Shown here in pieces: positions 224-43,918 of a DNA stretch of 43,918 bases. Below the pieces are notes generated by a model. That model searched no databases. It saw only the letters and a list, made by a program, of their open reading frames with translations, and had not been told where the DNA came from. This DNA comes from a virus. The position numbers were made by a program, and so were the translations under genes. The first letter of the stretch is position 1. Every line of letters starts with the position of its first letter. The stretch lies in IMG/VR virus record IMGVR_UViG_3300042516_003682, positions 1 to 43,918 of that record; one strand, given 5' to 3'.

Positions 224-1486
224 TCACCGGCGCAGCGCTTGAACGTGCGGGATGATTCTGATGCCCGCGGCGAGGCAGATAGCACGGCACTCCGCGTGTG
301 ACTGGGAGCCGATTCCAAAATCAGTCAGCCCGCCAACGCCCTCATCTGACACCCAAAACCGCGGCGCCGGCTGACGGGCCAGCCAACGGAGCGCCGGGCC
401 GTCAATCAAGTTATCCCCACCGGGCAGCGCCTTGCGGACGGCGGCCACGCTCGCCGCGCGGCCACGCTCCGCGCCGATCACGATCCGGCCGGAGCGCTTC
501 GCGGTGCTGCCGGAGTAAAACGCCACAGTAGCGCCGGGTGCTTCCAGGATGAGGCGCTCAATATCCTCATCATCGTAGTGCATGGATCCGGACGCATCGC
601 ACAGCACGGTCCCACCCTTGACGGGGCGTTTGGCCCCGAAAATGGCCCCGTCGACCGGGAGCCGGTGGACGGCGGACGGGATCACGCCGGTATCGGCAAA
701 CCGCCGGCCAGGGGCTCGCCGCGGCTTGACGGCACGATCCAGCGGCGGCCGGTGGACGTCTGACACCGGCGCCCAGGATCCGACACCCTTGACGGTCTTA
801 AGGCGCTGCGCCGTCGCACGGTCGCCGCCGTCCTTCTTTTCGCCGCCGTCGCCCCCTTCCGGGAATTCAAAGTCGAAAGCGCGGGCCATGGGGATCGTCC
901 ATTTCCGGAACCCCGCCGCGCCGCTGAAGATGCGCCGCTCCGCGGCGTATCGGTTGCGCCGTGGCACGGCCGCGATGCGGACGGCGCGGACCATGGATTC
1001 CAGCCGGCTTTCGATCGCGGCCAGCGTCGCATGATCCACGCCGCGGCGCTGGAACGCTTCCATAAGGCGCTCCCGCTGGGGCTCCAAAAACCAATTGACG
1101 AGCAACGCGCCGGCGATCGACCGCTCTGAACCGCCGCACACTTGCGCGATGGAATCGGCTTCCGCGCTTGTGATCGCGTCGGCGTCGACCATATCACGGT
1201 AATCGAGGAAGCGCCCGATCCGGTTGTCCTCACTCCATTGCAGCGCTTCCATGCTCACCTTCTGGCGCTTACAGACGGTCTCCGCGGCCATGCGCGGCGT
1301 GATCCGCGCATGCACTAACTCGTGATTCCGGACCATGCGCGCCGTCGGCGTATCGGCCAACGGAGCGTATAGGTTTGCCTTGCGCGTATCGGTCGCTCCG
1401 GCAAGGTCGCCGGGGCTTCCAGTGACGGACCAACGGCGGCCGTCGATGGCGGCCGGCACGGGGCGGTTTGTATCGGGAATCATCAT
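224..1486 (-). CDS. vWA-domain protein with an HExxH motif, partner of MoxR-type ATPase
   Basis: The protein has 420 residues. The C-terminal third carries a von Willebrand A metal-binding (MIDAS) motif, DASGS, at about residue 297. HELVH near residues 55-59 fits the HExxH pattern of zinc metallopeptidases. A combination of an HExxH-containing N-terminal region and a vWA-like domain is known from DUF2201-type proteins, which sit beside MoxR ATPases; CobT is another vWA partner of an AAA+ ATPase. Here the upstream gene is just such an AAA+ protein. A chaperone or remodelling pair is the likely role, with an unknown target. The start at ATG-ATG follows CGGAGACCCG, the leader motif shared with the plus-strand operon. 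Whether HELVH binds zinc is unproven. Confidence 0.75.
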   Translation of the reverse strand: MMIPDTNRPVPAAIDGRRWSVTGSPGDLAGATDTRKANLYAPLADTPTARMVRNHELVHARITPRMAAETVCKRQKVSMEALQWSEDNRIGRFLDYRDMVDADAITSAEADSIAQVCGGSERSIAGALLVNWFLEPQRERLMEAFQRRGVDHATLAAIESRLESMVRAVRIAAVPRRNRYAAERRIFSGAAGFRKWTIPMARAFDFEFPEGGDGGEKKDGGDRATAQRLKTVKGVGSWAPVSDVHRPPLDRAVKPRRAPGRRFADTGVIPSAVHRLPVDGAIFGAKRPVKGGTVLCDASGSMHYDDEDIERLILEAPGATVAFYSGSTAKRSGRIVIGAERGRAASVAAVRKALPGGDNLIDGPALRWLARQPAPRFWVSDEGVGGLTDFGIGSQSHAECRAICLAAGIRIIPHVQALRR

Positions 1487-1521
1487 GGGACGGGTCTCCG
1501 GATTGGTGGATGGATGGAACC

Positions 1522-1552
1522 GCCGGGGGCGCCCACTGTGGGCGCCCCCGGC
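1522..1552 (-). terminator. Perfect hairpin between the MoxR and vWA genes
   Basis: A 14-bp perfect stem (1522-1535 with 1539-1552) with a 3-nt loop fills most of the gap between the MoxR stop (1559) and the vWA start (1486). No U tract follows on the minus strand. It may set the ratio of the two proteins by partial termination or by protecting the upstream message. The hairpin is certain; the function is inferred. Confidence 0.5.
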
Positions 1553-1558
1553 CTGCAG

Positions 1559-2239
1559 TCACTCCGCGGCCACGGCGAGGGAATCGAGCACGGCGCGCCA
1601 GTTGGCGCCGAACGTCGCCGCCGCGGCGGTCTCCGGCCCAACGGCCGAACGGAGCCGCGCGAACGCGAGCCACGAGCGGAGCGTGATCCGATCGTCGCCG
1701 GTCGCCGTCACGGTGCCGCGGGCAGCATTGTGGAGATCCGCCGGAAGCGCCGCGATTGCCGCCGGGTGCGGCTCTAGGATTTCCACCGCCGCAGCGAAGC
1801 GGTCGCGGAGCGCCGGAATAAGATCCTCCGGCCGGCCGTTCATGGTCCCGACAACATGGAACCCCGGCGCCGGCGTGATCGTCTCGCCGCTGGGGAGCGT
1901 GATCCGGCACGACTCGCGGTTATCCATCGCGGCCAGCATGAAAGACAGCGTATCACCGCCGGCGTGATCCACTTCGTTCACAACAACCCGCGAACCCTCC
2001 CGCATCGCGGCCACAATGGGACCGTCTTGCCAGACAAACTCCCCGCCGCGCGGATGGTAGTGGCCACGCAACTCCGCGGCCGGGGTCTCCGGCGTGATCG
2101 TGATATTCCGAACGCTGCCGGAGTAACGCGACTGCGCCGCGTAGGACTTGCCCGTGCCGGGGGGACCATAGAGCAGCGTATTTCCCTCGCCAACCCCGAC
2201 AACCGATTCCGCAACCGTCCAAGCGTCAAACTTAGCCAT
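1559..2239 (-). CDS. MoxR/CobS-type AAA+ ATPase
   Basis: This 226-residue single-domain ATPase has Walker A GPPGTGKS (25-32), a Walker B-like strand VVVNEVDHA (85-93, with Asn where Asp is usual), sensor-1 GTMN (131-134) and a possible arginine finger RDRF (145-148). The order and size fit the MoxR/CobS clade, which works with a vWA protein to remodel targets. The vWA partner follows 72 bp downstream. I start at MAKFDAW because TTGGGAGAG lies just upstream; a longer frame adds 14 residues without a ribosome site. It lacks the GAFTGA loop of sigma-54 activators, so it is not a promoter activator. Confidence 0.85.
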   Translation of the reverse strand: MAKFDAWTVAESVVGVGEGNTLLYGPPGTGKSYAAQSRYSGSVRNITITPETPAAELRGHYHPRGGEFVWQDGPIVAAMREGSRVVVNEVDHAGGDTLSFMLAAMDNRESCRITLPSGETITPAPGFHVVGTMNGRPEDLIPALRDRFAAAVEILEPHPAAIAALPADLHNAARGTVTATGDDRITLRSWLAFARLRSAVGPETAAAATFGANWRAVLDSLAVAAE

Positions 2240-2878: not shown

Positions 2879-2971
2879 GATGGCGGGTCTCCGTTGGGTG
2901 CCGGTCGCTCTCTTGTGTCGCCCGGTTGCCTTGCTATCGGCGCGCCAGGCGCCGGAATTTAGCCCGCCGAA

Positions 2972-2989: not shown

Positions 2990-3117
<128 letters not shown>

Positions 3118-3130
3118 GGGCAGGGGGGCC

Positions 3131-3144
3131 GTCTATATATAGAC
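3131..3144. promoter_or_regulatory. 14-bp palindrome GTCTATATATAGAC
   Basis: This perfect palindrome is one of the few AT-rich spots in the control region and directly abuts the iterons. It could be an operator, a melting site or a -10-like element. No -35 box is visible at the right distance because the GCGT repeat lies there. Confidence 0.5.
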
Positions 3145-3226
3145 CCGTCCGCCGCAAGTGGACCCGTCCGCCGCAAGTGGACCCGTCCGCCGCAAGTGGA
3201 CCCGTCCGCCGCAAGTGGACCCGTCC
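3142..3226. repeat. Four 19-bp iterons plus a partial fifth
   Basis: The unit GACCCGTCCGCCGCAAGTG occurs at 3142, 3161, 3180 and 3199, all identical and directly adjacent. The first 9 bases of a fifth copy start at 3218. Each unit spans nearly two helical turns. The array ends 17 bp before the sigma-54-like element at 3243, a distance compatible with an upstream activator array. Iterons are also typical of replication origins. Either reading is inference. Confidence 0.9.
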
Positions 3227-3242
3227 GTAATAAAGACCCGTC

Positions 3243-3258
3243 TGGCACGGCAGTTGCA
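3243..3258 (+). promoter_or_regulatory. Sigma-54-like promoter P1 for the small-gene operon
   Basis: TGGCACGGCAGTTGCA matches the consensus TGGCACG-N4-TTGCW at every fixed position, with GG-N10-GC spacing. A start about 12 bp past GC (near 3269) would give a 35-nt leader containing CCAGGAGACCCG before the ATG at 3304. Iterons lie immediately upstream. Confidence 0.6.
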
Positions 3259-3303
3259 CTTGGTCAAGTTGTGCGACGGAAACCCAAACCAGGAGACCCG
3301 GCC

Positions 3304-3702
3304 ATGACAAAGCGGACCATCGAAGTCGACGACGTACTCCCCGATTGCGTGGAAACGGCGATTGATTATGTGAACGACCTTCTCCGCGACTACATCAAGG
3401 ACAACGAGCCGGACGCCGTGCCGTGCTTGTCAAACGACCTGGACTATGACGGCCGCGTTCACGAGATCGTCGATGGCGCCGTGCCGATTTACGACGGACA
3501 GATCGAGGCCGCGTGGTTTCTCCACGGCCGCGACCTGGAGGAAGCCTACGAAAACGCCGGAGTCGGTGAGAACCCGCGCGAGAACGGCGGCATGGCGGCC
3601 ATCCATTACTACATCTACGAGAAGGTGGCCGAGTGGTACGCGGCTAACGCCGAACGGATTTTCGACGAACTGCGGCACGGCGATTGCACTGACAAGGAAT
3701 AG
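3304..3702 (+). CDS. Hypothetical phage protein, 132 aa
   Basis: First gene of the plus-strand operon. The start is fixed by AGGAGACCCGGCC just upstream. The product is acidic and begins MTKRTIEVDDVLPDCVETA; a motif HYYIYEKVAEWYAANAERIF sits near the C-terminus and looks helical. No signal peptide or catalytic motif is visible. It resembles small conserved phage/plasmid proteins of unknown role; I do not assign a family. A sigma-54-like element for the next gene lies in its last 30 bp. Confidence 0.7.
   Translation: MTKRTIEVDDVLPDCVETAIDYVNDLLRDYIKDNEPDAVPCLSNDLDYDGRVHEIVDGAVPIYDGQIEAAWFLHGRDLEEAYENAGVGENPRENGGMAAIHYYIYEKVAEWYAANAERIFDELRHGDCTDKE
3673..3688 (+). promoter_or_regulatory. Sigma-54-like element P2
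   Basis: CGGCACGGCGATTGCA, inside the 3' end of the preceding gene, has GG (3674-3675), N10 and GC (3686-3687), with one mismatch (C for T) at the first base. A start near 3699 would leave a 38-nt leader to the ATG at 3737, with AAGGAGACCCG placed normally. Confidence 0.45.
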
Positions 3703-3736
3703 CCCCGAGTGACGCAAACACAAGGAGACCCGAGCG

Positions 3737-4012
3737 ATGAAAAACACAAGCAGCGACCCGAACTTTCACCCTATCTACACCTTGGCGAAAACGGCAATTG
3801 AACAGAGAAGCAGCGATGGGTGCTTGGCCGATGGCGCAGCCAGGGCGGCGGCCGACGAGTTGCTCGCGCACTGGGGTTGCGCAATCCGTAACTGGGGAGG
3901 CTGCGGCCCTGGTGCCGCGGAGGTCGAGAAAATGATTGTCGGAGACCTTCGCGACGTCGCCGCGGCCCTGATGGAAGTGGCGGACGAAATCCTCTGCAAT
4001 CAGGCGAAGTAA
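3737..4012 (+). CDS. Hypothetical protein, 91 aa
   Basis: The ATG follows ACACAAGGAGACCCGAGCG, a leader almost identical to that of the next gene. The product is probably helical, with four cysteines and a WG-rich middle (HWGCAIRNWGGCGPG). No family is recognised. It belongs to the plus-strand small-gene operon between sigma-54-like elements P2 and P3. Confidence 0.65.
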   Translation: MKNTSSDPNFHPIYTLAKTAIEQRSSDGCLADGAARAAADELLAHWGCAIRNWGGCGPGAAEVEKMIVGDLRDVAAALMEVADEILCNQAK

Positions 4013-4038
4013 TTCCACTACACAAGGAGACCCGAGCG

Positions 4039-4290
4039 ATGAAAAGCGAATTGAGCGTGTATCGAGACAAGGACGGCAGTTGCTCTATCTGGCGCGGCGA
4101 AAAGGCTCTCGCCGGAGGGCTGTCCGACAAGGACGCGATGGAGATGGCGGCTGGGCCGGAGTTGCTGGAGGCGCTTGCCACTCTCGTAGGAATCGCAGAG
4201 ACCGACTGCATGGATGACAAAAGCAACGTATGGCGGTCGGCCATGATCGACGCAAACGCCGCCATCGCAAAAGCGGAGGGCCGCTCATGA
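4039..4290 (+). CDS. Small conserved phage-type protein, 83 aa
   Basis: It begins MKSELSVYRDKDGSCSIWRG. The C-terminal part reads ELLEALATLVGIAETD and ends AIAKAEGR, a pattern seen in many short phage early proteins of unknown function. The leader is TACACAAGGAGACCCGAGCG. That includes ACAAGGA, which matches the core of the CsrA consensus. The stop overlaps the next start (ATGA), so translation is probably coupled. Confidence 0.65.
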   Translation: MKSELSVYRDKDGSCSIWRGEKALAGGLSDKDAMEMAAGPELLEALATLVGIAETDCMDDKSNVWRSAMIDANAAIAKAEGRS

Positions 4291-4493
4291 CGACAGTTAT
4301 CCCCGCATGGATCCGCAAGCGCGACGAGACCGGCGTATGGGCCATCCTCGGCAGCGAGCCGCCGGCCGACGCGCAAGAGACATTCATTCCGGCCACGCGA
4401 GTGGAGTCAGTGGTCGAGTCAGAGCATGAGATCGAGGGCCGGCGGTTTGGAATCATAGTGGCACGGGACTTGCACTCTAAGGAGGCAAACTGA
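4287..4493 (+). CDS. Hypothetical protein, 68 aa
   Basis: The start is the ATG overlapping the previous stop (ATGA at 4287), with GGAGGG 7 nt upstream; a longer in-frame extension is rejected. The protein begins MTTVIPAWIRKRDETGVWAI and looks like one small beta-rich domain. No family is recognised. The sigma-54-like element P3 lies in its last 35 bp. Confidence 0.6.
   Translation: MTTVIPAWIRKRDETGVWAILGSEPPADAQETFIPATRVESVVESEHEIEGRRFGIIVARDLHSKEAN
4459..4474 (+). promoter_or_regulatory. Sigma-54-like element P3
   Basis: TGGCACGGGACTTGCA matches the consensus with GG (4460-4461), N10 and GC (4472-4473). However, the predicted start near 4485 falls in the ribosome site AAGGAGG of the gene at 4493, so it would give an almost leaderless message for that gene. 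It may serve genes further on, or be non-functional. Confidence 0.4.
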
Positions 4494-4772: not shown

Positions 4773-5243
4773 ATGCAAACCTTCCTTCCCTACAACAACT
4801 TCATCGACTCGGCCCGCTGCCTGGACTACCGCCGGCTCGGCAAGCAGCGCGTCGAGTGCAAGCAGATTCTGCAGGCGCTCGGCGTCCCGGTCGGTGGACC
4901 CCTGCGTGATAAGCCAAGCAGTTGGCGGAATCATCCGGCGACCCGTATGTGGCAAGGACACGAGTATTCGCTGTGCGTGTATGCCATCGCAATCTGCGAC
5001 GAGTGGCGCCGCAGAGGCTACCGTGACACACTACAAGAGCAGTTCTACGACGCCGCCAACACGCTCCTGCGATTCGGAAAAGACGAATCCGGCCGGCCGC
5101 CGTGGCTGGGGTGCGATGAGTTCCATGCGTCGCACAGAAGCAACCTGCTCCGCAAACTTCCGGCCCACTACGGCAAGTTCGGCTGGAGCGAGCCAGACAA
5201 TCTGGAATATGTCTGGCCGATTGGCACGGCACTTGCAGTTTAG
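4773..5243 (+). CDS. Pyrimidine-dimer DNA glycosylase-like protein
   Basis: The 156-residue protein opens MQTFLPYNNFIDSARCLDYRRLGKQRVE, abridged here as MQTFLPY, then LDYRRLGKQRVE. It continues with WRNHPATRMWQGHE, IAICDEWRRRGYRDT and FHASHRSNLLRK, ending in an FGW...YVWP segment. This block order matches the bacterial and phage family annotated as pyrimidine-dimer DNA glycosylase (Pyr_excise, PF03013, distant from T4 endonuclease V). Members are proposed to cut at UV dimers or act as small DNA-binding glycosylases. The ATG is preceded by GGAGGCGAACTGAA. Assignment is from remembered family pattern, so function should be taken as putative. Confidence 0.7.
   Translation: MQTFLPYNNFIDSARCLDYRRLGKQRVECKQILQALGVPVGGPLRDKPSSWRNHPATRMWQGHEYSLCVYAIAICDEWRRRGYRDTLQEQFYDAANTLLRFGKDESGRPPWLGCDEFHASHRSNLLRKLPAHYGKFGWSEPDNLEYVWPIGTALAV
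5222..5237 (+). promoter_or_regulatory. Sigma-54-like promoter P4
   Basis: TGGCACGGCACTTGCA, preceded by T, matches YTGGCACGRNNNTTGCW in full, with GG (5223-5224), N10 and GC (5235-5236). It lies in the last codons of the glycosylase-like gene. A start near 5248 gives a short leader with ACAGGAGGCCGGAGCG before the ATG at 5271. Confidence 0.55.
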
Positions 5244-6946: not shown

Positions 6947-7206
6947 GCGTGACGCTTGCTATGGCACGGCTGGCAGAGCAGCCGCAGGTTGTGCATCGCG
7001 TCGGTGCCGCGCGGCTTCTCGATGATATGGTCGACGTGCGCCTCGCGGCCGGCCACCAGGATCCCGCACAGTTGGCACTTGCCCTCATCCCTGGCGATCA
7101 CGGCCAGCCTTGTCCTGCGCCACGCGGCAGAGCAGTACCCGCGCTCCGCAGCAGTCGGCCTGGGCTGGGCCGGTCGGGGCCGGAATGTCGGGATCCGTTT
7201 AGGCAC
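6919..7206 (-). CDS. HNH endonuclease
   Basis: The 95-residue nuclease has CQLC (44-47), the HNH core HVDHI (57-61), the Asn in MHNLRLLC (about 73) and CQPCHSKRH (78-84): two zinc-binding pairs around a beta-beta-alpha metal site. Standalone HNH proteins in phages nick DNA, aid packaging by terminase or act as homing enzymes. The start is GTG, overlapping the upstream stop by 8 bp; no ATG is available near it. It is the last gene of the long minus-strand operon, converging on the plus operon with no room for a terminator. Confidence 0.85.
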   Translation of the reverse strand: MPKRIPTFRPRPAQPRPTAAERGYCSAAWRRTRLAVIARDEGKCQLCGILVAGREAHVDHIIEKPRGTDAMHNLRLLCQPCHSKRHAQDSLGHGV

Positions 7207-9228: not shown

Positions 9229-9458
9229 TCGTCGCTCCCGTCAACGAGCGCCAGGGTCAGGACGTCGATGGCTTTCTTCTGGTCTTCACCGAGGCAGTCC
9301 GTCAGCCGGAGCCGCGTTCTCACGGCGGCAAGGTTGGCCATCGCCTCCTGGTAGTCAGGCGCGCTCGACGGCACGAGGGCATCCGGCAGCAACTTGAGTT
9401 GCGGCCACGCCGCCACGAGGGCGGCTAGACCGGCGGCGACATACTGCAGTGTGGTCAT
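9225..9458 (-). CDS. Small protein with an N-terminal hydrophobic helix, 77 aa
   Basis: It begins MTTLQYVAAGLAALVAAWPQ, a likely single membrane helix, followed by a soluble helical tail. The ATGA junction with the upstream gene fixes the start. The tail phrase (DALVPSSAPDYQEAMANLAA) is not a known family. It could be a holin-like or accessory lysis component; evidence is only the topology. Confidence 0.55.
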   Translation of the reverse strand: MTTLQYVAAGLAALVAAWPQLKLLPDALVPSSAPDYQEAMANLAAVRTRLRLTDCLGEDQKKAIDVLTLALVDGSDE

Positions 9459-9736
9459 GCCAGCACCTTGGCGGCGGCCCAATCAAAGAACGCCTTCCCT
9501 TCCGGCGACCGGAGGACGGCCTCCAGGTGGTAAAGCGCCTCGTCGTCGATTTCGGTATTCGACTTGCCGGCCGCCCACTGCACGGCGGCAACCACGGCGA
9601 GCGACTGGTCGTGCGGGGTCTTGGCGGTCGCGACGGCCTGGAGGCGCCCAATGAGCGGCGCCCATTCGGCCAGCAGTTTCAGTTTTTCCAGGATCGGGAG
9701 GTTCACGCCGTAGATGTCTTCAATCGGGTCGGTCAT
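9455..9736 (-). CDS. Hypothetical helical protein, 93 aa
   Basis: It begins MTDPIEDIYGVNLPILEKLK after AAGGAGCCAAAAC, a good ribosome site. It is all helical with no signal or metal motif. It overlaps the upstream gene by 17 bp and the downstream one by 4. No family is recognised. Confidence 0.6.
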   Translation of the reverse strand: MTDPIEDIYGVNLPILEKLKLLAEWAPLIGRLQAVATAKTPHDQSLAVVAAVQWAAGKSNTEIDDEALYHLEAVLRSPEGKAFFDWAAAKVLA

Positions 9737-9905
9737 GTTTTGGCTCCTTGCCAGCGAGAAACTTCAGGTATTGCGGCGACATGGTGCGGGGTTGGCTCGT
9801 CAACTTGCCCCAGTGGCTCGGGGGGGGCTCGGGGACGAGATTCATGAGGGGCGGTGAGTCGTCTCCGTAACTCAATCCGGCGATGTAACGCGGCTCATCA
9901 CTCAT
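9720..9905 (-). CDS. Hypothetical proline-rich protein, 61 aa
   Basis: It begins MSDEPRYIAGLSYGDDSPPL; a proline-rich middle (VPEPPPSHWG) is followed by a basic end. It overlaps both neighbours (8 bp upstream, 17 bp downstream). No known domain. Confidence 0.5.
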   Translation of the reverse strand: MSDEPRYIAGLSYGDDSPPLMNLVPEPPPSHWGKLTSQPRTMSPQYLKFLAGKEPKHDRPD

Positions 9906-17277: not shown

Positions 17278-17368
17278 CGAACCACGTTGTGTACGGGAGC
17301 AAGGTGACGTAGACGGCCACGCCGATCAGCGACATGACGGTGGCGACGTTCAGCCAGAGGTTAAGCAT
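17270..17368 (-). CDS. Tiny single-pass membrane peptide, 32 aa
   Basis: The frame MLNLWLNVATVMSLIG is followed by VAVYVTLLPYTTWFDE. Most of it is one hydrophobic helix. It overlaps csrA by 8 bp upstream and the Myb-like gene by 8 bp downstream, a spacing like the rest of the operon, which supports translation. Function unknown. Confidence 0.5.
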   Translation of the reverse strand: MLNLWLNVATVMSLIGVAVYVTLLPYTTWFDE

Positions 17369-17531
17369 TCTTGTTGCTCGTCAGGAGTTCTTCCCGGTAG
17401 ACGCCGACGTCATGCGGCGCCTTGATGCCGATGCGGACGGCGCCGTTCGGCAGGACTTTCACGATGGCGATCTCGATCCCCTTGCTGGGGATGAGGACTT
17501 TCTCGCCCGCTTTCCTTGTCACTACAAGCAT
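17361..17531 (-). CDS. CsrA/RsmA carbon-storage regulator homologue
   Basis: The 56-residue protein begins MLVVTRKAGEKVLIPSKGIE and contains VRIGIKAPHDVGVYREEL, which matches the whole CsrA fold. CsrA dimers bind GGA in RNA hairpins, often over ribosome sites, and alter translation and decay. The conserved basic residues (R6, K7, R46) are present. The start is preceded by CGGAGTCAGCC. In this genome many leaders contain AAGGAGACCC, possible targets. Host or phage target is not established; phage-encoded CsrA is uncommon. Confidence 0.9.
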   Translation of the reverse strand: MLVVTRKAGEKVLIPSKGIEIAIVKVLPNGAVRIGIKAPHDVGVYREELLTSNKNA

Positions 17532-17549
17532 GGCTGACTCCGTTCAGCG

Positions 17550-17996
17550 TTATGTGGCAGCGTAGCCTACAGAGGCAAGCCAATCCTTGCAAGCCTCTTT
17601 CACCGATCCACTCTTGTGCTTTCCTGCACACCACTTGATGTATGCCATTCCCTGTTCGGTTTCTGACACTTGTGCAAGTGTCATGCCGGAGTAGCGGCCG
17701 TCGAAGAAAATAAAGTCCGGAGCCGATGGCTTCAGTGTCCGCGCGGCCAAGACGTCCATCTTGAAGCCGCAGAAACAACACTCGATCAGCCACTGGCCGC
17801 GATAGTCGTCGATAATGTCAAAATAGGTAGACCCGCAGTCGCAGGTGTAGTCGCCCTCCGAGCGGCCGATGATCTCCATGGGCCGCGTTTTGTGGGCCGG
17901 CGCAGGCGCATTCTCTGGGGCCGGCGGCTTCCTGGCGGTCTTCTTTTTCTTCTGGTCCGGGACTTCTTCCGGCGAAATGTCGAAAAGCAGGCTCAT
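17550..17996 (-). CDS. Zinc-finger protein with an ExoX-C-like end, 148 aa
   Basis: A Pro/Lys-rich N-terminus leads to a zinc site with CDCG (about residue 52) and CCFCG (about 73), then FDGRYSGMTLAQVSETEQGM and YIKWCAGK. The latter resembles the C-terminal helper domain of ExoX-type exonucleases, which follow a GKYKG...L..V pattern. It lies directly after the UvrD-like helicase (ATGA junction), so a role in recombination or repair is likely. No nuclease active site is seen. Confidence 0.6.
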   Translation of the reverse strand: MSLLFDISPEEVPDQKKKKTARKPPAPENAPAPAHKTRPMEIIGRSEGDYTCDCGSTYFDIIDDYRGQWLIECCFCGFKMDVLAARTLKPSAPDFIFFDGRYSGMTLAQVSETEQGMAYIKWCAGKHKSGSVKEACKDWLASVGYAAT

Positions 17997-19639
17997 AGTT
18001 TCAGGTTCATCCGGTAGTCCACCGGCTCCGAGGACACAATCAGTTCGTGTCTGGCCCTTGTCACGCCGACGTACTCGATGCGGCGCTCTTCGTCGTGCTG
18101 CTCGCGATCAGACCGCTGGGCTTCGTCGATCCGCCGCGTCGTGGTGGTCGACATCACAACAACGTCGGCCTCCATGCCCTTCGCAGCATGAATCGTGCCG
18201 AGCCTGATCTGTGGCCGTGTCGCCAATTCGGCGCCCCATTTGACGGCCGAGTTCCGCCAGCGGTCCCCGCCAGTTACCAGATCCCCCCAGGTGCCGCCGT
18301 TCACCCGGTCGACCATGGCCTGCGTCATGCCGGTGTCTTCCAGGTCGGTCGGAAACACGACGTCCCAGCGGCGCACCGTGAGTTCGTTCTGCCACAGGGT
18401 CTTCGTGCCTCGATCCAGGAGTGGCCCGTCCTTGCCGCGGGATGGCAGTTCCTGGATGGCGCAGGCAAAGTCATCGCCTGACACGGCCTCGCCATGCTCC
18501 AGATCCCACAGGGCTTTGATGCCCCGCATGGCGGCGGTGTTGTCCTTGGACTTGAGTTTGGCGAACGGCATCTTCCGTTTGCGGAGGGCTTCGGCCCAGT
18601 CCTCCAGCGTGAAGTTGCAGCGGGCCAGAATCAGCGTCGGCCGCTTGGGGTCCAGGCTGGGGATGACCGCCGATGGCCCGCCGGCCCGAGAAATCTTGCC
18701 GTCATGGTCGGCGGGGGCCACGCCGCGGTCGAAGTAGCCGTCGTGCATCTGCCGCAGGCAGCGTTCGCCGAGGGCCAGAATCGGCGCCGGGCAGCGGTAG
18801 GACTTCGGCATGATCCGCGTCTTGTCCGCCTCCCATGACAGAAAGTGCTTGGCGTCGGACCCGCCAAAGGAAAACACGGCCTGGAACGGATCGCCGGCGA
18901 TGTAGACCCACTTGACGTCAGGCCCAGCCGCCAGCCGCTTGCAGACGCGATCCACCAGGGCCGAGGCGTCCTGGGCCTCATCGAAGATCCATGCCCGCAC
19001 CCCATGCGGCAGGTCGCCCTCTGGGTCGACCTCATACAGCCCGTCCGCCTCAAAGTGGATGCCGGCGTAGCGGGCCAGCAGGTCGCTGAAGTCGCAGCGG
19101 CCCTCCAGGCGCTTGGCCTGCTCGTACCGCTGGATGAACTGCCGGCACTGGGCGAACGGCGGGACGTCCTGGCCAGCCCGCACCATGCGCTCAATGGTCT
19201 TCTTGAGCGGCTCGATCCGGGCGCGGCTGACCTCCCAGCAATTCAGGGCCGACGCTGCAGCCCTGTCCCCAGCATACACGGCGTAGCCGCTGTCATCGTC
19301 GATGATCGTCCGAATGTCCACCTTGAGGGCGTCGGCCAGCCATGTCTGGCTCGCCCTGGTGTCGTCGATCAGTTGCCCCTTGGCCACGGCCAACTGCCGG
19401 TGGGCGACGCCGTGGCAGGTCTTGAACCACCCGTCCCTGGCCAGCACCTCCGGAGGGATACCCCATGAGGCACTGGCCCGGGCGACGGCCTCGGCGCGGG
19501 CGGCCCGAGTGAAACTGGCGAACCCGATCGCAAATGGGCTACCGCCGAGGGCGTTCTTGGCACCCTCCATGACCTGCAAAAGTTCCGTAGTCTTCCCAGA
19601 CCCCGCAGATCCAATCAGTTTGGCCGTCTTTTCTGCCAT
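17993..19639 (-). CDS. UvrD/Rep-type superfamily 1 DNA helicase
   Basis: The 548-residue protein carries SF1A motifs: Walker A GSAGSGKTT (10-18), DEAQD (220-224), GDPFQAVF (249-256), YRCP, and near the end GTIHAAKGMEADVV and YVGVTRARHELIV. Start MAEKTAKLIG follows GGAAAGTGG. These helicases unwind DNA 3'-5' in replication and repair. It is the next gene after the prim-pol, separated by a 15-bp perfect hairpin. Confidence 0.92.
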   Translation of the reverse strand: MAEKTAKLIGSAGSGKTTELLQVMEGAKNALGGSPFAIGFASFTRAARAEAVARASASWGIPPEVLARDGWFKTCHGVAHRQLAVAKGQLIDDTRASQTWLADALKVDIRTIIDDDSGYAVYAGDRAAASALNCWEVSRARIEPLKKTIERMVRAGQDVPPFAQCRQFIQRYEQAKRLEGRCDFSDLLARYAGIHFEADGLYEVDPEGDLPHGVRAWIFDEAQDASALVDRVCKRLAAGPDVKWVYIAGDPFQAVFSFGGSDAKHFLSWEADKTRIMPKSYRCPAPILALGERCLRQMHDGYFDRGVAPADHDGKISRAGGPSAVIPSLDPKRPTLILARCNFTLEDWAEALRKRKMPFAKLKSKDNTAAMRGIKALWDLEHGEAVSGDDFACAIQELPSRGKDGPLLDRGTKTLWQNELTVRRWDVVFPTDLEDTGMTQAMVDRVNGGTWGDLVTGGDRWRNSAVKWGAELATRPQIRLGTIHAAKGMEADVVVMSTTTTRRIDEAQRSDREQHDEERRIEYVGVTRARHELIVSSEPVDYRMNLKL

Positions 19640-19723: not shown

Positions 19724-21448
19724 TTAACCGCTTTTCCGCGCACTTTCGGCGCTGCTCACCCGCGTTTCGCTTGTAGTAATTAGGGAATCGCCCGCCGCGA
19801 TCTTCTCCAGCGCCCGGATGTGCTTCCCGGTGAACCGGATGTACCGCCGCGTCGAGCCGCCGTCGCCGGCGTAGCGGCCCACCGGAAACGCTGCCTCGCC
19901 GGTTGCGGCCAGGAGCATCTTCTTGATCTTGAGTTTGTCGCCCTCCTCCAGACGCCTCTGGCGCCTGTCTACGTCCTCCCAGACGCGAGACCACCCAAAC
20001 CACAGTTCCCAGATGCCGTCCTTGCTGCGGACCCAGGCGGGCCTCCCAGACGCATCCGGCTCGCCGTCCTCCTCTTCTTCCTCCCCCGGCTCCGGAGTCA
20101 TGCAGAGGGCGTCGAGCATCCAGCCGGCGACGGCCGAATACCGGAGGTTCTCGGCCGTGGCGTCCTCCTGGACGGCCTCGTCCATGAGTTTGGCCTTCAA
20201 CCCGCGAACCGCCGGCTGGCCGGCCCGCGGCCCCTTGGTCTTGGCGGCCGAGCCGCACCAGATCACGCCCCACTCCTCGGGGACGGCATCCAGGATGACC
20301 GTGTGGGTGGCCTCCAGGACGGCGCAGGCGACCTTGGCCGATGACCTGTAGGTCTCGGCGTCCATGGTGACGTCGACCATCTTGGTCTCGCCCTTGCAGA
20401 ACACCGGGATCGAAAGCACGAACGACACCGGATCCGAGTGAACCACCTTGAGCCGCCACCGGCCGGGGAACCACTCGCCGTCACGGTACTCCAGCCCGTT
20501 GAGCGTGAACGGGCAGTCGACCGGCTCCTCGGCCTCGACGGGGTCATCCATGCCGCCGGACTCGATTCGTTCCTCCAGCCGCTTTTTCAGGAACTCCGGC
20601 CCGCCGCCCTCGGCCCGCACTTTGATGGCCCAGCGGATCTGGCCGCGCCAGATGTTCTCGACCTCGATGTCCGGCAGCGGCGGCACGCACTGCATCAAGT
20701 TGATGGCCTTGGACTCGATCAACGTCTCCTGCTGCTCGCGCGGATCGTGGGGGTCCAGCATCCGCACACACTTCGACGCTATGTACCGCACCATCGTCAG
20801 GTGCCGGGAGCCAGAGTCCGCCTTCTTGTGGAGGATCTCGCTGGCCGGCGGCTTGGCGGCCTCGTCCCGCCCGGTGGCCTTGACGATGGCCTGCATGAGT
20901 TCCGGCGGGATCTCGGCGACGGCGACTTCGTCGGGCGAGAACCCGTACTTCCACCGATACCGGACGCCAGACGCATGGACGGACGGCGGAAACACCGACT
21001 GCGCCCCTTTGCCGCCGCCGCCGATCCGGACCTCCAGGCCGCCGATCTTGATGACGGCCTGCTCCGGGAGCCGGTCGTCGAACTTGAAGATCCGGTGTTC
21101 GCTGCGGTGCGAGATGTAGGTCGGCGTCTCGACCAAGTGCAGGCCGAACTTTTCGGCCGTCTGCTTGCCGGTCTCGTCGTCCCATTCGATGTCGACGATG
21201 CCGGACTCCCGGCCCAGCGCGACGCCGATATTGGTGTTGGTCGCGCCGTCGAACCAGTCGGCGAGGGTTTCCTCGTCCGCCGTGGCCACGGTCTGCCAAC
21301 GCGAGTCCACCGGATGCTTGCCGGGGGTGCCGCAGGCGGTCCCGTATAAGCAGGTGCAGGTTTTTCCGTCCGCCCGCAACCCGTTGATCCGCAGACAGCG
21401 CCAGCCCATCGCGGCGTAGGACGCCGCAGCCTTAAAGAAATCTTCCAT
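19724..21448 (-). CDS. Bifunctional DNA primase/polymerase-domain replication protein
   Basis: Of 574 residues, the first about 200 form a prim-pol domain: AAASYAAMGWRCLRING, a Cys-rich turn TCTCLYGTACGTPGKHP, W at 51, GRESGIVDIEWD with metal-binding D86/E88, and a later YISHRSEHRIFKF. The C-terminal part has no Walker motif, so unlike many phage prim-pols it lacks its own helicase, which is encoded nearby. Start MEDFFK follows CGGAGGCAGAT. It would prime and perhaps fill DNA in phage replication. Confidence 0.85.
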   Translation of the reverse strand: MEDFFKAAASYAAMGWRCLRINGLRADGKTCTCLYGTACGTPGKHPVDSRWQTVATADEETLADWFDGATNTNIGVALGRESGIVDIEWDDETGKQTAEKFGLHLVETPTYISHRSEHRIFKFDDRLPEQAVIKIGGLEVRIGGGGKGAQSVFPPSVHASGVRYRWKYGFSPDEVAVAEIPPELMQAIVKATGRDEAAKPPASEILHKKADSGSRHLTMVRYIASKCVRMLDPHDPREQQETLIESKAINLMQCVPPLPDIEVENIWRGQIRWAIKVRAEGGGPEFLKKRLEERIESGGMDDPVEAEEPVDCPFTLNGLEYRDGEWFPGRWRLKVVHSDPVSFVLSIPVFCKGETKMVDVTMDAETYRSSAKVACAVLEATHTVILDAVPEEWGVIWCGSAAKTKGPRAGQPAVRGLKAKLMDEAVQEDATAENLRYSAVAGWMLDALCMTPEPGEEEEEDGEPDASGRPAWVRSKDGIWELWFGWSRVWEDVDRRQRRLEEGDKLKIKKMLLAATGEAAFPVGRYAGDGGSTRRYIRFTGKHIRALEKIAAGDSLITTSETRVSSAESARKSG

Positions 21449-21471
21449 ATCTGCCTCCGTGCGAGAAAGAA

Positions 21472-22418: not shown

Positions 22419-22455
22419 TTATGGCCTCCTGTAGCCTTAGAACACCGAACCAGCG

Positions 22456-22905
22456 TCAGCCAACCGTGACATGACGCAACTTCATCTCCGTGTATTCACC
22501 GACGAGGCCGTCGAACGGCGTCCCGGCGGCAAACGAGGAGCCGGCCTCCTTGCCGGCCTCCTTTGCCCGCTCGACGAGCCACGACTTGAGAGTCGTGGTC
22601 GCCACCGTCGTGATCGCATCCTCGATCCCAACGGCTCGCGCTGCCTCCAGCACCGCGTCGCGCCGATCCCTCGGCACCGACAAGTGAAGGGACTCCTCCA
22701 CCCGCCAACTCCTCCCTGCAACCCGAACTCCGTCGAGTCGTTGCACCGTCATGTCCTCCACGGCGATTTGCTCCAAACTCGCGCGACGCTTCTTCATTTC
22801 GTCGAGTTGTGCAGATACCGTGCCAATCTGCCGGTCGAGTTGCGTGATTTCTTCAAGCAGCCCCGACAGCCCGTTTTGTGCCACTGTAGCCTCTGATGAT
22901 TGCAT
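22456..22905 (-). CDS. Conserved coiled-coil phage protein, 149 aa
   Basis: The N-terminal 60 residues form a coiled coil (LLEEITQLDRQIGTVSAQLD); the second half, including SFAAGTPFDGLVGEYTEMKL, resembles a conserved phage block that often accompanies replication genes. Start after AGGAGGTCATAG. The 5' end overlaps the SNF2 helicase gene by 53 bp. Role unknown. Confidence 0.6.
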   Translation of the reverse strand: MQSSEATVAQNGLSGLLEEITQLDRQIGTVSAQLDEMKKRRASLEQIAVEDMTVQRLDGVRVAGRSWRVEESLHLSVPRDRRDAVLEAARAVGIEDAITTVATTTLKSWLVERAKEAGKEAGSSFAAGTPFDGLVGEYTEMKLRHVTVG

Positions 22906-25110: not shown

Positions 25111-25968
25111 ATGACGCTGACACAATTTCTCGACGAGATCTACATCCCACTCAAGGGCATCTGCAAGCACACTGAAATCCTCTACAAAATCACAATCTCC
25201 GAGTTCGGCAAATCCCTCGGCCACGAGCCGACGCTGGCCGACCTGGAGGAACTCAAGGTGGCACGGTTCCTGGCCAAGCGCGTCCGCGAGCGACGGCCGG
25301 CGACGGCCGCCAAGGACCGGAGCCAGATCCGCGCCATGTGGGAACTGGCGGCGCGGCGGCGGATGGTCGATATGTGGCCGACGATCGGCCTCGTCAAAGT
25401 GCCGGAGCGGGTGCCGGAGGCGTGGACGTCCGACGAGATGCGGCTGATCATGCAGTCAGCCAGCAAAGAGACGTCACTCTACGACGGCATCCCGGCGGCC
25501 CTCTGGTGGCGCGCGTTCTTGCTCGTGTGCTACGACACTGGCGAGAGAGTGGGGGCCGTCAAAGCCCTGCGGTGGCGGGACGTTCGCGGGGGGACGGTCC
25601 TGTATTCAGCCGAGAACCGCAAAGGCGGGCGGCGAGACATTCTGCGGGCCGTCAGCCCAGAGACCAAGGAGGCGCTTGATCAGATTCGCTGCGGGCGTGG
25701 CGCCGAGGACGCCGTGTTCCCCTTCCCCCGCATGAAGTCCTACCTCTGGACGCGGCTGGGCATCATCATCCGTCGTGCCGGCCTGCCGGCCGACAGAACG
25801 TGCAAGTTCCACAAGATCCGGAAGACAACGGCGTCCTACGCAGAGGCCGCCGGACTCTCGGCGCAGGCGATCCTGGATCACTCCGACCCCAAGACCACCC
25901 GCAAGTACCTCGATCCTAGGATCGTCGTCCAGGCCAATGCCTCGGACGTCCTGCCGAAAGTCAGTTAG
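25111..25968 (+). CDS. Tyrosine recombinase (phage integrase)
   Basis: The 285-residue protein has an N-terminal SAM-like core-binding domain (TLTQFLDEIYIPLKG) and the catalytic set R146 (TGERVGA), K171, H234-x-x-R237 (HKIRKT), H257 (DHSDPKTT) and Y266 (KYLD). It would integrate the phage at an att site, implying a temperate life. Start MTLTQF follows AGAAGGGCCACCA. No attachment core is obvious in the next 40 bp before the convergent gene. Confidence 0.93.
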   Translation: MTLTQFLDEIYIPLKGICKHTEILYKITISEFGKSLGHEPTLADLEELKVARFLAKRVRERRPATAAKDRSQIRAMWELAARRRMVDMWPTIGLVKVPERVPEAWTSDEMRLIMQSASKETSLYDGIPAALWWRAFLLVCYDTGERVGAVKALRWRDVRGGTVLYSAENRKGGRRDILRAVSPETKEALDQIRCGRGAEDAVFPFPRMKSYLWTRLGIIIRRAGLPADRTCKFHKIRKTTASYAEAAGLSAQAILDHSDPKTTRKYLDPRIVVQANASDVLPKVS

Positions 25969-29776: not shown

Positions 29777-30130
29777 TCAGGTCTTGAGGAGGACGACGCA
29801 CGACACCGCCGTGCCGGCGGCTTGGCCGGCGACGAGTTTCAGCGCTCCGACGCCGTAGGCGGCGTCAGGGAGGGCGTAAACGCGGGCCTCGGTGGCCGAT
29901 TGGGCCAAGGTGATGTCGGCCGCACTGCCGCTGGCGTCATACAGCCGGCCGAACGTGCCGTCTGTCGTGCCGCTGCACCAGAGTTGAATCGAGGTGGCCG
30001 CGGTTGCGCCGGTGCCGAGAAGCACCGCGCCGCCGGCAATGTCGTCCCAGCGAATCGTGGTGGCCGCAGCGGTCGCCGTGGACAGCGTGACGGGCAGGGA
30101 CTTGAACTTCCGCCTGATTTTCGGTTCCAC
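29777..30130 (-). CDS. Small virion-like beta protein, 117 aa
   Basis: It starts with GTG after AAGGAGGTGCAGA. The sequence is Ala/Thr/Gly-rich with repeated strands (LPVTLSTATAAATTIRWDDI, GGAVLLGTGATAATSIQLWC). It resembles small phage capsid/tail decoration proteins rather than an enzyme. No family is recognised. Confidence 0.55.
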   Translation of the reverse strand: MEPKIRRKFKSLPVTLSTATAAATTIRWDDIAGGAVLLGTGATAATSIQLWCSGTTDGTFGRLYDASGSAADITLAQSATEARVYALPDAAYGVGALKLVAGQAAGTAVSCVVLLKT

Positions 30131-30188
30131 TCTGCACCTCCTTGTGCGTTGCGGGCCTCTACGGGCCTCACGGGGCGTGCTACAGGGG

Positions 30189-39623: not shown

Positions 39624-42600
39624 TTACAAATCCAAGACAATTCCCATCTTTTCGGCCATGTCCTTGATACCAGTGGCCACCTCCTTGAGCGTCTCGTTCT
39701 GCCTTTGGAGTTCTGCCAGATTCTGATCACGAGACGAGTCGTCTCCGCGAAGCAGACGGTTCAGTTCTGCTTGTCCCTCGACGGTTGACGCGTCTGTGGC
39801 GCGAAGCGCCGCGCGAGACGGCCCCTGAAGAATGGCCGTCTGGACTGCATCGGCCATCGAGAAGATGCCAGGAGCCGCGGCACGCATCCTCTCGTCTGCA
39901 AAACGCTTGACTGCCTCTTCCTGCTGCGCCTTGGCTTCGTCGATTCGCGACCTGTCAGGCAGGCCGCCGCCGGCGTCGATAATTTCTTGCGTTATTTCGT
40001 CAAATCTGCGGCCGATGTCTGCAATGCCCTGCCGCGCGTCTTGCGCGGCCCTCTGCGCCGGAGACTGCATCAACTCCCGGCCGCGATCCGCCGAGGCATT
40101 GAGTTCGGCGAGGAGAGTCGACGAGTCGCGGGCGGACGCCACGCGAGAGTCCTGCTCGATCAATTGCTGCTCAAGTCGCGCGCGCTCTTCAACGAGTCTC
40201 TCGCGCCCCTGCTGATCCAAAACGCCGGTCGTCGCCAGTGCGCTGTTGATCTCATTGACGCGCTCCAGCGAGCGGGCCGTTTCTGCGCCGGCCGTGTTGA
40301 CGATTGATGCGTACTCTTCGATTGCCTGATCTACGACGTTCCAGTCAATTCTTTCTAGCCCAAGTTGATCTGCGGATTGCCGGATTACATCAAACTCGCG
40401 CTGAAGCGCATCTGCGAGTCCTTTGTTGCCAGCGGCCGTCGCGGCGGCGATGTCTTCCTCAAAGGTTTTGGAGTCAGGAAGCCCAGCACTGGCGGCGATA
40501 TTCAAGAATGCGTCTTCAGCGTTTTTAGCCCTCTGCGCCGCCTCTGACCTCTGCCGTGCTGGCCCAGCCTGCGACGCCTGCTGGCTGAACCGCTCGCGGG
40601 CGGCAGCGACCTCCTGCTCAACGCGGGCATTCGCAGCCTGCTGCTCCTGCAACTGCGTGTCGGCGATCCGGCGATCAAGTTGAGTCTGCGGCGTGCTTAG
40701 ACCAAGGTCCGCGCGGCGCGCTTGATCGGCGGCCGTCTGGGCCTGCTGAAGATTGGCCTGGGCCTCCTGGCGTGCGCGGTCGAGGACTTCGGCGAACCTT
40801 TCGAGCGCGGACGCCGCAGTCTCCGCTGACGTAGCGGCGGCCACGAGGGCGTCCTTCTGCGCTCGCAGCGGGCCAAGTTGCTCCTCAATTGCCCTGGCGG
40901 CCTCTGGCGTATCTGCGGACGAAAATCTTTCCACAAGCCTTGCGATCTCTTCGCCAATTCCTTGCGCTGCGACCGCAAGCCCGCCAGAGCCTAACTTCGA
41001 CGCCCTGTTCTGTATGTTTTCGACTTCATCGGAAAGACGCAGGGCGCCTTCCGAGAACCTGTCAGCGATTTGCTGAACCTCTGGCGCGAGGGAGGCCGCT
41101 AGCCTTCTGATAGATACAGACACGCTGTCGATTGCGTCGTCGATAGGCTTGGTGTCAATCCCCATCCCGCTATCAATTTGAGACTGACGAAGCGACCGCT
41201 CCTGCTCAAGAACGGACATGACTTCGCGCAGTTGAGCGATTTGCTCTTGCGCGGTCTGCCCTGCGCCAGATGCGCGGCGCTGATCTAGCCGCTTTCTCCT
41301 GGACTCAAGGTCTTTCTCAAGCGTTGCGATATCTTCGCCCGCTGGAGCATCTATTCCGAGGTCTCGCCGGAGTTTAGCGCGGTTAAGCCTTGCCTCGACA
41401 CCCTGGAATGACGCCTCCTCTGCGGCGACTAGGTCAGCGCCAATGGATTCCCTCGTCGGGCGGGCCACGCCCCTCGCAATCGCAGCCTGCTCCCTGCGGC
41501 GAGTGCTGTCGATCTGGCTCTGCAACCTGATTCGCTGCTCAAGGTCTGACTCTTTCTCAAGCCGCGACTCAAGTATCCCTCGCTGTGCGCGGAGCCTCGC
41601 GACATCGGGCGACAGAATCGTTGTCTCGGCGTTGTTTCTTTCCTCGGCCCTGCGGCGAAGTTCCTTCACCCGGTCTCCGATCTCGATGTTCTTTTTTCCG
41701 GACTCCGTTGCAGTTGATTTGGCTATTTCAGACGACAGGTTTCTGTAGGCTTCAGCAAGTGACTCGACTGCCGACTTCTGCCGTGAAACTGCCTCGTTCA
41801 GCGATTTTGTTCTCTGCTCTGCTTCGTCTTGCGCGAAAGCGTACTTGAGAAACGCAGTTACAACTTGGCCGCCAACCACTGTCGCTAGACCAATGAAAAG
41901 TCCGGTCGTTGCCGACAGGCCAGGGATCAGGCCGGACTGCCCAAGAAGGAGACCGAGTTGAGTGATATTGTTGCCGACAGCCCGCAACTTGTATTCAAGC
42001 GGGCCAGTCGCCGACATCAGGTCGTCAATGGCAAAAAGCCCCTGCTGCAGCGCCAGTTGGGCGACCGCAGCGCCTCGCACTGAAAGCGATCCGGCTGTAT
42101 TCCTAGACCGAGTCATCGCGGCTTCGATTTGCTGCGTGCTAAAGTTTTCGCCGCTAACCCTGCTTTGTTCAGCAACGAACGCAGCGAGTCCTTTCGTAGA
42201 CAGCCGAATCTTGTTGTCGAGCCTGTCGAGTTCCCTGACTCGGTCGTCAAGGCCCATGCTGCTCGCGGCAACCCTTGCCATCTCCTGCTGAAGCGCTGTA
42301 ATTCCAGACGTCACGCTGTCTATTTCGGACTGAATCGCGATCCTGGCGCCGCCGCTGGAGATCTGGCCGCGAAACTGCCGTGCGACAGAAATGTCAGACG
42401 CTGCATCGCGAGCACCCTGCGACAACTGCTCCGAACTGCCGCCAGACGCGCCAAGGAACAGTTCCTCCTGCCGCCTCGCTGTGTTGCGAATCTCGACCTG
42501 ATCAGTGATCTCTGCCTCGATCCTGCGCTGGTCGACTAGCAGCGCGTCAATTCGGCGAAGCCTGTTCTCTGCTTCGCTGTAGTCGTTGTTTCTGTTGAGG

Positions 42601-43918
42601 TTCGTTGCCCTGGTCAATTCAGCGTTGATCTGCTGGTTAATCTGCAGGAGTTTGTTGGCCTGCCGCTCCGCGTCTGGCGTCCCGAGAGTCCTGGCCTGCG
42701 CCGCGAGACCCTGCGTTCGCGGGATCGTTTCTGCGTTGAATCCCTCTCGTGTTAGGTTGATTGCGCGCTCGATTTCTGCCTGTCGCCGGAGCGGATCTCC
42801 TGCGGCAAGCCCAGCGACCTGACGATCGAAGTCGCGTTGAATGCTGCGCCTCGCGAGGTCTCGTGGCGCGAAGATTAGCGACTCGGTCTGCTGCCGAAGA
42901 TCGCGCGTCGTATTGGCTGCATTCAGCGACGCAGCCAACGCATCCACGGCCTGCTTGGCCTGCTTGGCCGACGCGGCACCGCGATTGAACTGCTCGACGA
43001 CGGCGGCAGCGCCGGAAATCAAGCCATTGAACTGCTGGCTATTGATTGCGCGCAGTTCAGTCGCCAGCCCAGACAGGCGCTCGCGAAGCGTTGTTACCTG
43101 CCGTTCGGCCCCCGGCGAGACGATCTGCTGGATCGCGGCAGAGTCCAGTTCGCGCTGGAATGACAGGTTGATGGCGTTCTGCCTGGACGTTTCGTTGTCC
43201 AGCCTTCGCTGCGCTATGCCCCTGTTTGCCAACTGCAGAGAAGTAACCGGCCGGCCCTCGCGCTCTGCTGTCGCAATTTCCAGTTGGTATCTGGCAACAC
43301 GCGCCGCGGCGCGAGCAACGCGCTCCGCGCTCTCTTCGGCCTGGACGGCGAGGTCTGCAAAGACGTCAGACCGAAAAGCCGCAGGCACCTCCTGCGCCCT
43401 GCCGCGCAGCGAGAGCGACCGCTGCAGCGACTCAAGCGCGCGGGGCTGAAAAAACGCGCCTCCGGAGTTGTTGGCATTGAGCGACCTTGAGAGCCGATCA
43501 AAGTCTCCAACTGCGGCAGTAGCCCGACCGAGCGCTATGAGGCTCGTTCGCAGTGATTCGATTCGCTGCCTGGACGCCTCGTATGTGGTCGAGCCTTCTC
43601 CAATTGACCTGTATAGATCCTGAAAACCAGCCTGCACCCTGCCGAGTTCTGGGTACAACTGGCTCTGCAGGGAGTTTGCCAGACCTTCGATCTGTCCGCG
43701 AACCTGCGTGAGCGGCCGGCCGATGTCCTCAAATGCCCGAAACTGGTCGCGCAGGCGGGCGGCATTCGGCAGGCCGGCGTCCACGTTGCGAGCCTGGAGT
43801 TGCTGGATCTCGCGGAGCGTCCGCTGAAACCGCTGCAACTGGGTCAGCGTGCCGTCCAGCGCCCTGGTGTTGAGGTTGAACTGGATGCCACGGGCTTGGC
43901 GCGCAAAATCCTGCAGTT
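39624..43918 (-). CDS. Tape-measure protein (5' end outside the window)
   Basis: More than 1,400 residues are visible, almost all helical and coiled-coil (repeated QR/AE-rich heptads). A hydrophobic segment (GLFIGLATVVGGQVV, about two-fifths through the visible part) marks the membrane-inserting part typical of tape-measure proteins, which set tail length and pass into the host. The frame stays open to the window end, so the start lies upstream. The large length implies a long non-contractile or contractile tail. Confidence 0.85.
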   Translation of the reverse strand, partial: LQDFARQARGIQFNLNTRALDGTLTQLQRFQRTLREIQQLQARNVDAGLPNAARLRDQFRAFEDIGRPLTQVRGQIEGLANSLQSQLYPELGRVQAGFQDLYRSIGEGSTTYEASRQRIESLRTSLIALGRATAAVGDFDRLSRSLNANNSGGAFFQPRALESLQRSLSLRGRAQEVPAAFRSDVFADLAVQAEESAERVARAAARVARYQLEIATAEREGRPVTSLQLANRGIAQRRLDNETSRQNAINLSFQRELDSAAIQQIVSPGAERQVTTLRERLSGLATELRAINSQQFNGLISGAAAVVEQFNRGAASAKQAKQAVDALAASLNAANTTRDLRQQTESLIFAPRDLARRSIQRDFDRQVAGLAAGDPLRRQAEIERAINLTREGFNAETIPRTQGLAAQARTLGTPDAERQANKLLQINQQINAELTRATNLNRNNDYSEAENRLRRIDALLVDQRRIEAEITDQVEIRNTARRQEELFLGASGGSSEQLSQGARDAASDISVARQFRGQISSGGARIAIQSEIDSVTSGITALQQEMARVAASSMGLDDRVRELDRLDNKIRLSTKGLAAFVAEQSRVSGENFSTQQIEAAMTRSRNTAGSLSVRGAAVAQLALQQGLFAIDDLMSATGPLEYKLRAVGNNITQLGLLLGQSGLIPGLSATTGLFIGLATVVGGQVVTAFLKYAFAQDEAEQRTKSLNEAVSRQKSAVESLAEAYRNLSSEIAKSTATESGKKNIEIGDRVKELRRRAEERNNAETTILSPDVARLRAQRGILESRLEKESDLEQRIRLQSQIDSTRRREQAAIARGVARPTRESIGADLVAAEEASFQGVEARLNRAKLRRDLGIDAPAGEDIATLEKDLESRRKRLDQRRASGAGQTAQEQIAQLREVMSVLEQERSLRQSQIDSGMGIDTKPIDDAIDSVSVSIRRLAASLAPEVQQIADRFSEGALRLSDEVENIQNRASKLGSGGLAVAAQGIGEEIARLVERFSSADTPEAARAIEEQLGPLRAQKDALVAAATSAETAASALERFAEVLDRARQEAQANLQQAQTAADQARRADLGLSTPQTQLDRRIADTQLQEQQAANARVEQEVAAARERFSQQASQAGPARQRSEAAQRAKNAEDAFLNIAASAGLPDSKTFEEDIAAATAAGNKGLADALQREFDVIRQSADQLGLERIDWNVVDQAIEEYASIVNTAGAETARSLERVNEINSALATTGVLDQQGRERLVEERARLEQQLIEQDSRVASARDSSTLLAELNASADRGRELMQSPAQRAAQDARQGIADIGRRFDEITQEIIDAGGGLPDRSRIDEAKAQQEEAVKRFADERMRAAAPGIFSMADAVQTAILQGPSRAALRATDASTVEGQAELNRLLRGDDSSRDQNLAELQRQNETLKEVATGIKDMAEKMGIVLDL

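Follow-up and report, generated by a model that had tools for sequence, protein, structure and literature searches.

A core csrA gene and candidate CsrA-binding leader hairpins in a phage family probably infecting Planctomycetota

csrA is a core gene of the phage replication operon

The window analysed here is the whole 43,918-nt viral contig IMGVR_UViG_3300042516_003682. This 43.9-kb contig carries an integrase gene (25111-25968), so the phage is probably temperate. By searching the 56-aa product of the gene at 17361-17531 (-) against Pfam, we found a match to CsrA of 57.2 bits (cut-off 27) in which residues 1-52 cover the entire domain; the initial annotation was thus right to call it a full-length CsrA homologue. 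The protein also matches PHROG 9500, "CsrA-like regulator", at 45 bits, which likens it to an annotated phage CsrA family (the PHROG entry being an annotation only), and it aligns with RsmE/CsrA structures over residues 1-50. T5, R6, R33, R46 and E48 are invariant in nine divergent phage CsrA copies, and both RNA-contact strands are retained (N-terminal MLxxTRK and C-terminal xxxREE), the window copy having V for L4.

We gathered relatives by three scans, made with csrA, with the leader described below and with a conserved 259-aa protein, and obtained more than 20 related contigs. csrA was found in all 18 that cover the locus, the window included, each time near genes for a 148-aa protein, a UvrD helicase and a prim-pol; a 19th contig carries a copy cut by the contig end, and the five contigs without csrA stop before its locus. 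Since every contig that spans the position has the gene, csrA is core and not accessory. In the window it is flanked by the UvrD/prim-pol genes and a methylase, with the 148-aa and UvrD genes (17550-19639, -), its upstream neighbours across the family, directly preceding it. The "accessory operon" in which csrA had been placed is in fact the replication operon, on the strand opposite to the genes at 3304-4290 and 13-16 kb from the leaders with which csrA had been associated.

A distant prophage of the lineage was found in a Planctomycetota genome (sampled from the phylum to which a Gemmatales bacterium belongs), with csrA sitting within a run of phage genes. This genome has 24 Sigma54_activat matches and 13 CsrA-family matches, the latter including the copy of the prophage. 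The hosts of the phage family are probably Planctomycetota. The GenBank phages searched include no close relative of the family, and CsrA matched just three of the records: two carry the name Acinetobacter phage, and the third is a Salmonella sequence. Elsewhere in the window, a 34-bp tandem repeat (3.7 exact copies) occupies positions 1-127 at the left contig end, and 224-2239 (-) encodes a MoxR-type AAA ATPase with a conserved 420-aa partner, a gene pair present in the compared relatives that cover the place (G002, G003, G005 and G006).

The csrA leader carries an ANGGAN hairpin on the ribosome site

Directly upstream of csrA, positions 17533-17548 (-) form the hairpin GCUGA-ACGGAG-UCAGC, whose hexaloop is of the ANGGAN type and contains the csrA ribosome site, GGA (17539-17541, -). 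The same hexaloop is seen in the RsmE NMR structures, and hairpins selected by SELEX mostly have 6-nt loops and at most 4 pairs (PMC7652899). The hairpin appears in both the MFE and the centroid fold, while the stability of the leader overall is unremarkable (z 0.53). In the family the stem changes in a paired manner, with variants such as UCCGA-AAGGAG-UCGGA and CGGA-AAGGAC-UCCG beside the window's own: 78% of the cells compared in the stem are paired, against 62 ± 4% after shuffling (0/500). G013, G014 and G016 lack the hairpin or have a weak one, and in G017, G020, G021 and G025 it is bulged or reduced to 3 bp. In two scans of viral contigs with a single csrA protein each, a GGA-loop hairpin with a 3-5 bp stem was kept in the 14 family-like copies and was missing from the two remaining, non-family-like ones. 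An unrelated 68-kb viral contig also has a csrA (near 6980, +), with its leader GGA in a small CGC-AGGAG-GCG hairpin. Inside the csrA gene of the window, codons 5-7 (17513-17519, -) spell ACAAGGA with the less common codons ACA AGG; we rejected this weak putative second CsrA site, which is kept among close relatives only.

The Planctomycetota prophage has its own version of the csrA leader hairpin, GUGA-AAGGAU-UCAC. Given the many CsrA paralogues of that genome, 13 family matches with only one from the prophage, the hairpins might be read mainly by host CsrA; the phage would then sense the state of its host, and its own copy would act as a supplement or competitor. However, the hairpin was found in none of the six other csrA leaders read in the prophage-bearing genome, and every covered family member retains csrA, most of them with the GGA-loop leader hairpin. 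We regard a main role for host CsrA as unlikely.

One loop geometry is enriched in leftward leaders

We counted hairpins with 25 loop geometries (0-4 bases, GGA, 0-4 bases) in the leaders of 15 family genomes, taking gene starts from a home-made caller, and compared them with flank shuffles. First, only the NNGGAN loop (two bases, GGA, one base) was enriched, with 62 hairpins against 15.3 ± 3.7 expected; the second-ranked geometry is the NNGGAN helix read one pair shorter. Relatedness among the genomes inflates these counts, which are not independent, but the effect is also seen in single divergent genomes, with NNGGAN as the top geometry in G005 (8 vs 1.3), G023 (5 vs 1.2) and G024 (4 vs 0.6), and with 6 vs 0.9 in G019 alone. 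The idea of a hexaloop came from inspecting csrA leaders, and these make up a minority of the hairpins counted. Second, the signal is specific to leftward leaders, where 51 hairpins remained after de-duplication against 13.9 expected (0/1000 shuffles). Rightward leaders, those of the early operon, were at background level (4/215), gene interiors showed no enrichment of the hairpin (2.6% vs about 2.3%), and 59 unrelated viral contigs, one of which has its own csrA, gave 12 hairpins against 11.0. Third, the signal varies with the first loop base: where this base is A, 15.8% of leaders carry the hairpin, against 1.5% otherwise and 0.9% in control phages, and among A.GGAG leaders it is found in 33/182 leftward, 2/62 rightward and 1/110 control-phage cases. 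The window by itself shows weak enrichment (3 vs 1.0), due in part to the contig ending short of most structural genes.

mRNA leaders often contain short stems. Together with the coincidence of the loop GGA with the ribosome site, this would fit protein-free structures that present or hide the Shine-Dalgarno sequence with CsrA uninvolved. Such structures hardly account for the enrichment of the CsrA loop alone among 25 geometries, nor for the difference between leaders with and without A at the first loop position, and we consider this explanation scarcely probable.

Other leftward genes with candidate CsrA hairpins

Hairpins recur across the family in the leaders of csrA, prim-pol, a 117-aa gene, a 111-aa gene and a tape-measure-like gene. 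The prim-pol gene (19724-21448, -; Pfam Prim-Pol 74.6 bits) has a covarying ANGGAN hairpin in relatives, with 65% of stem cells paired against 45 ± 4.6% (0/500); in the window this hairpin is reduced to a 2-bp stem (21453-21462). The putative target at 29777-30130 (-) encodes a 117-aa protein without a Pfam or PHROG match, and is preceded by GCAC-AAGGAG-GUGC (30134-30147, -), a hairpin present in the MFE fold whose stem lengthens to 5-6 bp in relatives. Paired stem changes are also seen in the leader hairpin of the 111-aa gene of the tail cluster, located between the tail-terminator-like and tape-measure-like genes. The latter, a large putative gene named from its size, position and sequence character with no family match behind the name, is truncated by the window end (39624-43838, -), so that its own leader lies beyond the window; its orthologues carry CUUC-AAGGAU-GAAG, CCUC..GAGG or AUUC..GAAU hairpins, with 89% of stem cells paired against 77% shuffled. 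With lower confidence, we add the leader of a 93-aa gene (9455-9736), in which UGGC-AAGGA-GCCA (9741-9753, -) has a 5-nt loop and is replaced by GCGC-AAGGAG-GCGC in G005, G015 and G016.

Within coding sequence, ANGGAN hairpins of 6-8 bp lie at 22307, 22551 and 22671 (-), the last two also present in the majority of close relatives, where some of the stem changes are paired. They are possible CsrA sites, or may reflect conservation at the protein level. We also considered a CsrB/RsmZ-type sponge RNA at the conserved 22551 and 22671 hairpins and rejected it: the region, 22419-22852, encodes a protein (DUF7307) that has a Pam3 gp33-like match, and an Rfam search for such RNAs gave no match.

The repeated leaders of the early region resemble promoter/ribosome-site cassettes

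The initial annotation had drawn attention to repeated GGAGACCC leaders and proposed that CsrA blocks their ribosome sites. The repetition is real: the motif occurs 7 times against 2.0 expected, a count equalled by 0/100 shuffles, and five copies lie directly upstream of gene starts, at 1492-1499 and 2885-2892 (-) and at 3292-3299, 3724-3731 and 4026-4033 (+). The positions first given for these leaders (1486, 2878, 3304, 3737 and 4039) are those of the start codons, and the copies at 2083 (-) and 17228 (+) are not leaders. As for the ACAAGGA core also put forward, it is present in both ACAAGGAGACCC leaders, that is in the ACAAGGAGACCCGAGCG sequences ahead of genes 3737 (3720-3736, +) and 4039 (4022-4038, +). 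These are only two of 13 ACARGGA places in the window, a number that is not significant against 7.5 expected (8/100 shuffles).

Binding of CsrA at these leaders has in its favour the motif being above chance, the ACAAGGA core at 3720 and 4022, and an independent scan of the collection with the leader itself, which returned three contigs, two of them carrying csrA. Against it, individual folds place the GGA of the GGAGACCC leaders in no ANGGAN hairpin, including both ACAAGGAGACCCGAGCG leaders, and rightward leaders lack hairpin enrichment, as described above. Moreover, the CCC that follows the Shine-Dalgarno sequence is not conserved among orthologues (group e132), and distant csrA-bearing relatives mostly lack the leader and have none of the sigma-54-type promoters discussed below. 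Because its bases drift in this way and distant csrA carriers do without these elements, we set the GGAGACCC leader apart from csrA, and CsrA control of the early operon through it seems very improbable.

The early region instead contains TGGCAC and TTGC boxes at the fixed spacing of sigma-54 -24/-12 promoters, in agreement with the consensus TGGCACG-N4-TTGC (PMC3224663). The pattern GGCACGNNNNTTGC occurs 6 times against 0.25 expected; five copies fall within the early rightward region, where four of them, all near-perfect, lie just ahead of a gene: TGGCACGGCAGTTGCA (3243-3258, +) ahead of gene 3304, CGGCACGGCGATTGCA (3673-3688, +) ahead of gene 3737, TGGCACGGGACTTGCA (4459-4474, +) very near gene 4493, and TGGCACGGCACTTGCA (5222-5237, +) ahead of gene 5271. 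Nine related contigs contain sites of this kind (G002, G005, G006, G009, G010 and G013-G016), and the reversed pattern was found 0 times in 22 records. Three of the five GGAGACCC leaders belong to the rightward early operon, and those of genes 3304 and 3737 follow near-perfect sigma-54 sites; the leaders therefore resemble promoter/ribosome-site cassettes. A combined promoter/leader pattern at fixed spacing gave no matches because the spacing varies.

The repetition of GGAGACCC may accordingly be a by-product of duplicated cassettes served by host sigma-54, which would explain the leaders and not csrA. Several details fit poorly: gene 4039 has the leader and no promoter of its own, two of the five leaders (1486 and 2878) are on the opposite strand without a sigma-54 site, transcription from the 4459 site would begin within the ribosome site of gene 4493, and no phage record encodes a sigma-54 activator. 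We nevertheless find duplicated cassettes a rather likely origin for the repeats. A phage-encoded activator was sought as Sigma54_activat and rejected, as the domain is in no phage record; this, and the several copies in one phage early operon, distinguish these sites from usual sigma-54 (RpoN) promoters, which they resemble in the TGGCACG-N4-TTGC boxes before rightward genes.

Other features surround these promoters. A 19-bp tandem array, GACCCGTCCGCCGCAAGTG (3142-3227, +), abuts the first sigma-54 site and may serve an activator, a repressor or a replication initiator; its counterparts in the relatives G002, G005 and G006 have 17-bp units with altered letters. The idea of the GACCCGTCC array as a GGA decoy was rejected, since GGA is lost in G005 and most of G006. 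At 2990-3116, beside a weaker sigma-54-like site, (GCGT)n is repeated without interruption for about 32 units as a microsatellite, in whose place G002 has a different GC-rich repeat. Within the early operon, 4773-5243 (+) encodes a pyrimidine dimer DNA glycosylase (Pfam Pyr_excise, 74 bits) with 83-94% identity in relatives.

Discussion

The protein family, the synteny, the enrichment of hairpins specific to one geometry and to these leaders, and the compensating stem changes are all observed in the sequences. From these, we judge it probable that ANGGAN leader hairpins allow the phage CsrA to repress translation of its own gene and of a selected set of core genes. In this model, CsrA dimers would bind hexaloops whose GGA is the Shine-Dalgarno core in the leaders of csrA itself, prim-pol, the 117-aa gene at 29777, the 111-aa tail-cluster gene and the tape-measure-like gene. 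CsrA on a hairpin would block ribosomes. CsrA would thereby regulate itself negatively and, depending on its level, act as a brake on proteins of replication and morphogenesis. With the loop GGA serving as the ribosome site, translational repression with negative autoregulation is the simplest reading, and the position of the targets in replication and tail assembly suggests dosage or timing control. CsrA binding, the direction of the effect and its timing in the infection cycle are what we infer here, and CsrA could instead activate or stabilise some targets. The broad idea that the phage regulates itself with its own CsrA thus stands, with the predicted sites in the csrA leader and those of other leftward genes rather than in the leaders first picked, which look like promoter/ribosome-site cassettes located mostly in the early rightward operon. 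The sigma-54-type promoters of that operon would be read by host RpoN. We only tentatively suggest, at somewhat less than even chance, a two-layer programme in which early genes depend on host sigma-54 and CsrA feedback times the translation of prim-pol and tail-assembly proteins.

The phage protein shares with CsrA, RsmA and RsmE the family, the invariant residues, the hexaloop, the position of GGA on the ribosome site and an apparent autoregulation. Unlike these regulators, including RsmE on its ANGGAN hairpins, it is the product of a core gene in a phage replication operon, and its predicted sites are in phage genes. Autoregulation of E. coli csrA and repression of glgC similarly work by repressing translation at GGA sites that overlap the ribosome site, but in multi-site leaders (PMC7652899), whereas the phage has a single compact hairpin on the Shine-Dalgarno sequence. 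The plasmid pQBR103 encodes RsmQ, likewise a CsrA homologue on a mobile element, which binds AnGGA, preferably in hairpin loops, and which was studied for its effects on host traits and discussed as a tool for host reprogramming (PMC9928087). In contrast, the phage sites lie in genes of the element itself, and their stems covary.

Our analysis provides a concrete list of candidate CsrA binding sites in this phage family, for which the evidence points to Planctomycetota hosts. As the visible sites belong to core genes of the virus itself and show paired stem changes, self-control of a phage by CsrA becomes directly testable. If the two-layer programme is true, a Csr-based clock or lysogeny brake would govern the virus and not its host.
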